Assembly: GCA_018668595.1 (NCBI GenBank)
Contig: JABJCP010000033.1
Span: forward strand, 1-64,000
DNA length: 64,000 nucleotides
Source: Candidatus Woesearchaeota archaeon
Lineage (GTDB): Archaea > Nanobdellota > Nanobdellia > Woesearchaeales > UBA11576
Direction of reading: 5' to 3'
The notes beneath the pieces are model-generated. The model was not told where the DNA came from, made no database searches, and saw nothing but the letters and a program-made list of their open reading frames with translations. This document shows positions 8,948 through 61,150 of the stretch, piece after piece. Position 1 is the stretch's first letter. Each line of letters begins with the position of its first letter. Made by a program: the position numbers and the translations under genes.

Positions 8948-9091
8948 GCCCCTGTAGTTTAGCCTGGTTGTCAAATAAGACTCTGACAAGGCAAATATGA
9001 CGTAAGATTGCGGATCTTATAACCCGGGTTCGAAACAAAATTTAAAAAAAACAAAAAAATTTTGAATTTTGCGTATTTCCCGGCAGGGGCG
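8948..9091 (+). tRNA. tRNA-Arg(GCG)-like gene with putative D-loop and T-loop introns
   Basis: Acceptor GCCCCTG 8948-8954 / CAGGGGC 9084-9090; anticodon stem TAAGA 9003-9007 / TCTTA 9015-9019 with loop TTGCGGA (GCG 9010-9012); T-stem CCGGG 9024-9028 / CCCGG 9079-9083. About 28 extra nt sit in the D-loop (containing TTGTCA...TGACAA) and about 43 extra nt in the T-loop (CAAAATTT...AAATTTTG). Confidence 0.7.
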
Positions 9092-21277: not shown

Positions 21278-21384
21278 AGTCCCGTAGTGTAGCGGCCAAT
21301 CATCTCGGACTTTGGAGATTAGGCCCAAAAAACATCAGGGTTCGAAGACATCCGAGGACCGCGGTTCAAATCCGCGCGGGACTA
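21278..21384 (+). tRNA. tRNA-Gln(TTG) with 37/38 intron (about 21316-21349)
   Basis: Acceptor AGTCCCG/CGGGACT, anticodon stem TCGGA/TCCGA, loop CTTTGGA with TTG at 21312-21314, T-arm CGCGG-TTCAAAT-CCGCG. Confidence 0.92.
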
Positions 21385-56751: not shown

Positions 56752-58164
56752 GTGATATATATGAAAGAAAAATTAGAAAAAGTAAATGATAATGAGTGGA
56801 TTCTACCCAAGAGCGTTAGAGAAGGAATGCTTGTGGATGCAAAAATTATTGGTAATCAATTTATTATGGATTCTTTAGAGAATGAAACTCTAAACCAACT
56901 TACTAATGTTGCAATGCTTCCAGGAGTAGTTGCCCCAGTTTGTGCAATGCCTGATGCCCATATTGGTTATGGTCTTCCAATGGGCGCAGTTGGCGCTTTT
57001 GATTCTGAAGAAGGAGTAATTAGTTGTGGTTGTACTGGTTTTGATATTAATTGTGGAATTAATATGATTAGAACTAACTTAACATATAATGATGTTAAAG
57101 ATAAACTTAGACCTTTGATTGGAAAATTATTTGAAAATATTCCTTGCGGCGTCGGTAGTAAAGGTAAGCTAAGAATTGAACGTTCTAAATTTAATGATGT
57201 TCTTACTAACGGTGTTGATTGGTGTGTGGAAAATGATTATGGTGTAAAAGAAGATGGAATGAACACTGAAGAAAATGGAAAAATGGAAGGTGCTGACCCA
57301 AGCAAGGTTAGTGATTTAGCAATCAAAAGAGGACTTCCTCAACTTGGAACTTTGGGTGCTGGAAATCATTTTTTAGAAATTCAAAAAGTAGATCAAATCT
57401 TCGACGAGACTTATGCAAAAAAATACAAACTTTTACCTGATCAAGTAGTTATCATGCTTCATTGTGGTAGTCGAGGTTTTGGTCACCAAGTTGCATCAGA
57501 TTATTTAAAAATTCATGCTAAAGCTGCAGAGAAATATAAAATTAAACTTCCTGATAAACAATTAGTTTGTGCTCCTGTAAATAGCGATGAAGGTCAAAAT
57601 TATTATAAGGCGATGAAGTGCGCAGTTAATTACGCATTCGCAAATCGTTTAGTTATGACTCAATGGATTCGTGAAACTTTCCAACAAGTGTTTAACAAAG
57701 ATTGGGAAACTATGGACATGCACACAATTTATGCACTCGCACATAATATTTGTAAAATGGAGGATCACATTGTCGACGGTAAAAAAAGAAAACTTTATGT
57801 TCATAGAAAAGGTGCCACTAGAAGTTTTCCAGATACTCCTGCATTAATTGCTGGAAGTATGGGTACTGCTTCATATATTTTACATGGAACAGAGAATGCA
57901 ATGCTTAAAACATTTGGTAGTACTTGCCACGGTGCTGGACGAAGAATGTCTCGACACAAAGCAATAGACTCATTCCGCGGAGAAGATATTAGAGAATCTC
58001 TTTTGAAAAAAGGAATTGTTGCAAGAGCTACTAGTCCCAAAGTTTTAGCAGAAGAAGCTCCTGGTGCTTACAAAGATATTGATCAAGTAATTGAATCAGT
58101 TCATAAAGCAGATATTTCAAAAAAAGTTGCAAGAATGGTTCCAATGGGAGTTGTTAAAGGTTAA
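56752..58164 (+). CDS. rtcB: RNA-splicing ligase RtcB
   Basis: AMPDAHIGYGLPMGAVGAF, SCGCTGFDINCGI, GAGNHFLEIQ, HCGSRGFGHQV, HGAGRRMSR. Confidence 0.97.
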   Translation: MIYMKEKLEKVNDNEWILPKSVREGMLVDAKIIGNQFIMDSLENETLNQLTNVAMLPGVVAPVCAMPDAHIGYGLPMGAVGAFDSEEGVISCGCTGFDINCGINMIRTNLTYNDVKDKLRPLIGKLFENIPCGVGSKGKLRIERSKFNDVLTNGVDWCVENDYGVKEDGMNTEENGKMEGADPSKVSDLAIKRGLPQLGTLGAGNHFLEIQKVDQIFDETYAKKYKLLPDQVVIMLHCGSRGFGHQVASDYLKIHAKAAEKYKIKLPDKQLVCAPVNSDEGQNYYKAMKCAVNYAFANRLVMTQWIRETFQQVFNKDWETMDMHTIYALAHNICKMEDHIVDGKKRKLYVHRKGATRSFPDTPALIAGSMGTASYILHGTENAMLKTFGSTCHGAGRRMSRHKAIDSFRGEDIRESLLKKGIVARATSPKVLAEEAPGAYKDIDQVIESVHKADISKKVARMVPMGVVKG

Positions 58165-61051: not shown

Positions 61052-61150
61052 GGCGGTAGTCGTATAACGGCTAGTATACAGGACTGTGGAAAATCAAGCA
61101 ACTTATTTTGCAGATATCCTGTGACGCGGGTTCAATTCCCGCCTACCGCC
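61052..61150 (+). tRNA. tRNA-His(GTG) with 37/38 intron (about 61090-61115)
   Basis: G-1:C73, acceptor GCGGTAG/CTACCGC, anticodon stem CAGGA/TCCTG, GTG 61086-61088, T-arm GCGGG-TTCAATT-CCCGC. Confidence 0.92.

Follow-up and report, generated by a model that had tools for sequence, protein, structure and literature searches.

The tRNA-Arg(GCG) locus

The window analysed here is a stretch of 64,000 nucleotides (nt) from a DPANN archaeon of the Woesearchaeales (contig JABJCP010000033.1, positions 1 to 64,000). For a neighbouring gene, the named relatives that match best are MAGs of Woesearchaeota and Nanoarchaeia, which sets the organism close to the Woesearchaeales and not among the Thermoproteota. 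At positions 8948–9091 on the plus strand of the window lies a gene for tRNA-Arg(GCG) that carries two introns, one in each side loop, the D-loop and the T-loop (Table 1). An original prediction, made from the sequence alone, had placed the start, end, strand and anticodon of this gene correctly and had described its stems as paired. The length that it gave for the T-loop insert was also exact, whereas its estimate of about 28 nt for the D-loop insert is to be replaced by 27 nt.

Removal of both introns in silico gives a mature tRNA of 74 nt. Watson–Crick pairing then extends over the whole of the acceptor stem (7/7), the anticodon stem (5/5) and the T stem (5/5), and U33, the GCG anticodon and a TTCRA T-loop are all present. 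ARAGORN reports tRNA-Arg(gcg) once both inserts are taken out, and no arginine tRNA when the sequence is left unspliced or when only one insert is removed. The unspliced gene was detected neither by ARAGORN nor by Rfam at the gathering score. In 60 Markov-randomised windows, an insert-tolerant tRNA finder returned zero candidates scoring 35 or more. Low-scoring Rfam matches to other families in the region were set aside as chance similarities of A/T-rich DNA, and group I or II introns were ruled out, the inserts being far too short and Rfam showing none.

Table 1. Parts of the tRNA-Arg(GCG) gene and further features. Positions are those of the window unless a locus is named; G000 is the studied genome, other G numbers are genomes with orthologs, and BHB is bulge-helix-bulge.
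Feature	Position	Strand	Remarks
Exon 1: acceptor 5' strand GCCCCTG, T8 A9, D-stem 5' strand, D-loop to G18 G19	8948..8967	+	
D-loop intron, 27 nt, position 19/20 (after G19)	8968..8994	+	BHB fit; missing from orthologs in G001, G005, G016 and G054
Exon 2: remaining D-arm, anticodon arm, variable loop, T-stem 5' strand, T-loop to A59	8995..9034	+	
Anticodon GCG (Arg, CGC/CGU)	9010..9012	+	Loop TTGCGGA, 9008-9014; ARAGORN on the spliced sequence
T-loop intron, 43 nt, position 59/60	9035..9077	+	BHB fit; site filled in orthologs of G001 and G012
Exon 3: T60, T-stem 3' strand, acceptor 3' strand, discriminator G73	9078..9091	+	
RtcB, tRNA-splicing ligase	56752..58164	+	Pfam PF01139, 544 bits
tRNA-Arg(CCT), three introns: D 28, anticodon 41, T 60 nt	L160, 1425-1628 (G000:C33)		

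Splice junctions and bulge-helix-bulge motifs

The splice points were set from uninterrupted relatives, without using RNA structure. At the D-loop, AGCCTGG^ATATGACG (^ marks the splice point) stands against the uninterrupted AGCCTGGATAGGACG of the same-genus ortholog in G001. At the T-loop, TTCGAA^T stands against the uninterrupted TTCGAAT of tRNA-Arg(GCG) in G054. Excision of both inserts at these points gives a canonical tRNA, colinear with the uninterrupted orthologs, and both the length of its D-loop and its 7-nt T-loop are those of the intact genes.

Archaeal tRNA introns are marked by two 3-nt bulges around a central helix of 4 bp, and this motif is found at both junctions, in strict form at the D-loop and in relaxed form at the T-loop. 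The D-loop motif reads GCCT-GG^T-TGTCA ... TGACA-AGGC-AA^A, with a central helix (GCCT/AGGC) paired at 4/4 positions and with bulges GG^T and AA^A. The T-loop motif reads TTCG-AA^A-CAAAATTT ... GAATTTTG-CGTA-TT^T; its bulges AA^A and TT^T are exact and its central helix (TTCG/CGTA) pairs at 3/4 positions. The inner helices are TGTCA/TGACA in the D-loop intron and CAAAATTT/GAATTTTG in the T-loop intron. For the former, the original prediction had proposed TTGTCA/TGACAA, of which the first T belongs to the 5' bulge and the last A to the central helix; for the latter, the AAATTTTG that it named is a duplicate that lies seven bases further upstream. Its bulge-helix-bulge reading holds, with the motifs at the exact offsets: when the inserts were shuffled and the splice points kept fixed, the fit was reproduced by 2 of 200,000 shuffled D inserts and by 27 of 200,000 shuffled T inserts.

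In the folded transcript, the 3' end of each intron would pair with conserved bases of its own loop, namely G15 to T17a for the D-loop intron and T54 to G57 for the T-loop intron. The endonuclease EndA would cleave after the second base of every 3-nt bulge, and the ligase RtcB would join the exons into a normal tRNA. We infer that tRNA-Arg(GCG) is transcribed, cut, ligated and charged.

Orthologs and conservation of the intron sites

The anticodon assignment agrees with orthologs in G001, G003, G005, G012, G016, G037 and G054. Compared with the spliced ortholog of G001, the spliced gene is identical at 68/74 positions, with a single base different in exon 1. Among these orthologs the inserts are present or absent independently of one another. 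The G001 gene has a 37/38 intron and a T-loop intron, and its D-loop is uninterrupted. In G003, from the same family, the D-loop has an insert of about 25 nt, in which a strict bulge-helix-bulge motif was looked for and not found, and the T-loop has none. The G012 gene has an insert in the T-loop only, and the genes of G005, G016, G037 and G054 have no inserts and uninterrupted 7-nt T-loops.

The same loop sites are interrupted in the Glu, Asp, Ile, Lys and Arg(CCT) tRNAs of this genome and order. When 59 related genomes were searched with a pattern for T-loop introns, 17 of them gave 23 matches in all, compared with 5 for the reversed control. The pattern placed no demand on pairing, yet 20 of the 23 sites have at least 3/4 central pairs, and at most of the 23 the insert-tolerant finder recognised a complete tRNA gene. 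When a looser pattern was applied to 371 genomes of the phylum, its matches stood out too little from those of the reversed control, and they were left aside. D-loop bases also form the central helix of introns at 19/20 in tRNA-Ile(GAT) and tRNA-Lys(TTT) of the genome, and in relatives; some D-arm inserts of other tRNAs gave no fit to a motif at 19/20 and were not counted as such. Furthermore, intronless Glu(TTC) and Ile(GAT) genes in G001 closely match the spliced forms from the studied genome.

Function and alternative explanations

Taken together, sequence comparisons indicate that this tRNA-Arg(GCG) gene is very probably functional, present in a single copy and interrupted by two bulge-helix-bulge introns at non-canonical positions. 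Several observations weigh against this. The D-stem of the spliced tRNA has a U13.U22 mismatch, and one U.U mismatch lies in the central helix of the T-loop motif, which makes that motif slightly relaxed. The closest TATA-like box is 73 nt upstream, compared with approximately 35–45 nt for many other tRNA genes of the genome. Finally, the assembly is a draft of 45 contigs and 90.5% complete, so that an intact copy of tRNA-Arg(GCG) could be missing from it.

The D-stem mismatch, the distant box and the incomplete assembly could also be signs of a tRNA pseudogene that has taken up two insertions and is decaying, the CGC and CGU codons being read by another tRNA or by an undetected intact copy. 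This is very unlikely, however, since the acceptor, anticodon and T stems are intact, the inserts match the motif offsets at sites common to orthologs, and interruption is the rule among the tRNA genes found in this genome (24 of 26). The original prediction had asked whether another tRNA-Arg(GCG) exists; no second copy was found in the assembly by BLAST with the mature sequence, by an Rfam scan or by a scan with a custom model. BLAST of the 74-nt sequence recovered nothing but the three exons of this gene and weak T-arm similarities elsewhere.

There is next to no chance that the inserts escape excision and simply enlarge the D and T loops of the mature tRNA, given that cutting at the motifs brings both loops back exactly to the form seen in relatives; moreover, a T-loop of 50 nt would disrupt the elbow formed by the D-loop and T-loop. 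An assembly or binning artefact, conceivable for a draft in many contigs, is just as improbable because tRNA-Arg(GCG) has introns in these loops in the independent genomes G001, G003 and G012 as well.

Introns in other tRNA genes of the genome

The only intronless tRNA genes found in the genome are Pro(TGG) and Val(GAC), and by our parsing the 26 genes contain at least 32 introns. Six of these lie in T-loops (Glu, Ile(TAT), Ile(GAT), Asp, Arg(GCG) and Arg(CCT)) and six in D-arms (Ile(GAT), Lys, Arg(TCG), Arg(TCT), Arg(GCG) and Arg(CCT)), with three introns each in Ile(GAT) and Arg(CCT). The 26 loci were obtained with a covariance model, R1, for which tRNAs from the studied genome and G001 were used in spliced or partly spliced form; 13 tRNAs scored above the Rfam cut-off. 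The general model thus overlooks half of the genes, and tRNA counts used to judge completeness or codon use in DPANN genomes may be too low. R1 recovers tRNA-Arg(GCG) end to end, with a score that is not independent evidence because the model was trained partly on this gene. The census rests on searches only and its counts are partial. The real number of tRNA genes should be higher than 26, and those undetected may be more heavily interrupted, split, or located in the absent tenth of the genome.

Among 37 anticodon-loop introns from the studied genome and G001, parsed as 37/38, the central helix is perfect in 17 and has at least 3/4 pairs in 29. Relaxed motifs seem to be common in this set, and a few of the remainder are perhaps misparsed.

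Other interrupted tRNA genes were observed in the window and elsewhere in the genome. The sole tRNA over the Rfam cut-off in the window scan is tRNA-His(GTG) at 61053-61150, with a 26-nt intron at 37/38. The tRNA-Gln(TTG) gene at 21278-21384, with a 34-nt intron at 37/38, fell below the Rfam gathering score in that scan and was recovered in the genome search. Compared with its counterpart in G001, tRNA-Thr(TGT) (L009, 1501-1624; G000:C33:50550-50673) apparently has two anticodon-arm introns, near 31/32 and at 37/38. A tRNA with approximately 80 additional anticodon-arm bases including CTCATAA, possibly a two-intron elongator tRNA-Met, is seen at L011 (1501-1654) and L171. Four interrupted tRNA genes (Gly, Ile, Glu and Val) are clustered on one strand at L003 (237-959; G000:C26).

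Splicing enzymes

Alongside the RtcB gene in the window, the genome has an EndA gene at G000:C28:57702. A single gene with an EndA domain was found per genome in 20/20 genomes, with open frames of 156–248 codons, and a search for a second EndA domain in the studied genome (E up to 10) found none except weak fragments with stops. A beta subunit or a fused three-unit protein, which would characterise an (alpha-beta)2 or epsilon2 enzyme, was not seen beside this one gene. From its sequence, the protein has the right size for the catalytic subunit of an alpha4 enzyme. Its best match in the PDB is the alpha subunit of Nanoarchaeum equitans (3iey_A), followed by the alpha4 EndA of Methanocaldococcus jannaschii. 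In the alignment, one C-terminal Trp is shared with the N. equitans subunit, the residue being Tyr in M. jannaschii. Specificity loops (CSL or ASL) are taken as insertions of 11–18 residues with a Lys. The alignment with the M. jannaschii enzyme shows no insertion at the region of the crenarchaeal loop, whose position was inferred and not aligned directly. According to a review (PMC6379350), relaxed bulge-helix-bulge introns are removed efficiently by (alpha-beta)2 and epsilon2 enzymes only. A single short EndA with no visible specificity loop seems to serve the intron load of this genome.

Comparison with known systems

Introns of this kind are already known from the Thermoproteales and Asgard archaea. 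Non-canonical archaeal introns, including those at 59/60, and up to three introns per gene have been described (PMC8450103, PMC4090602, PMC3218864). A survey of tRNA introns in the Woesearchaeales was not found in the open-access literature, subscription journals and preprints lying outside the search. As a tentative suggestion, to which we give somewhat less than even weight, the Woesearchaeales may join the lineages in which multi-intron tRNA genes are especially frequent, and their single-gene EndA, lacking the known specificity loops, may process a large number of introns, those with relaxed motifs among them. If true, this would contradict the view of one-gene alpha4 enzymes as narrow in specificity and paired with few introns. 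The system makes it possible to test directly whether the diversity of tRNA introns is constrained by the architecture of EndA, and the sister genomes allow the gain and loss of introns to be traced.

In the Thermoproteales (Pyrobaculum and Thermofilum), tRNA genes likewise have multiple introns, up to three per gene (PMC4090602, PMC8450103). These organisms belong to another phylum, and their EndA is an (alpha-beta)2 enzyme encoded by two genes, which in the Crenarchaeota carries a specificity loop, in contrast to the one EndA gene here. In Asgard Atabeyarchaeia and Freyarchaeia, 92–95% of tRNA genes are interrupted, often at non-canonical positions, and over half have multiple introns (PMC11291895, 2024). 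This lineage is unrelated, and the share of multi-intron genes is lower in the studied genome, as judged from a partial census. The permuted tRNAs of Thermofilum pendens and Cyanidioschyzon merolae also have a junction at 59/60, with a bulge-helix-bulge motif in T. pendens (PMC3218864), whereas the parts of tRNA-Arg(GCG) here are in normal order. Nanoarchaeum equitans, whose alpha subunit is the best PDB match to the EndA described above, has both alpha and beta EndA genes together with split tRNA genes, whereas one EndA gene is seen in the studied genome.
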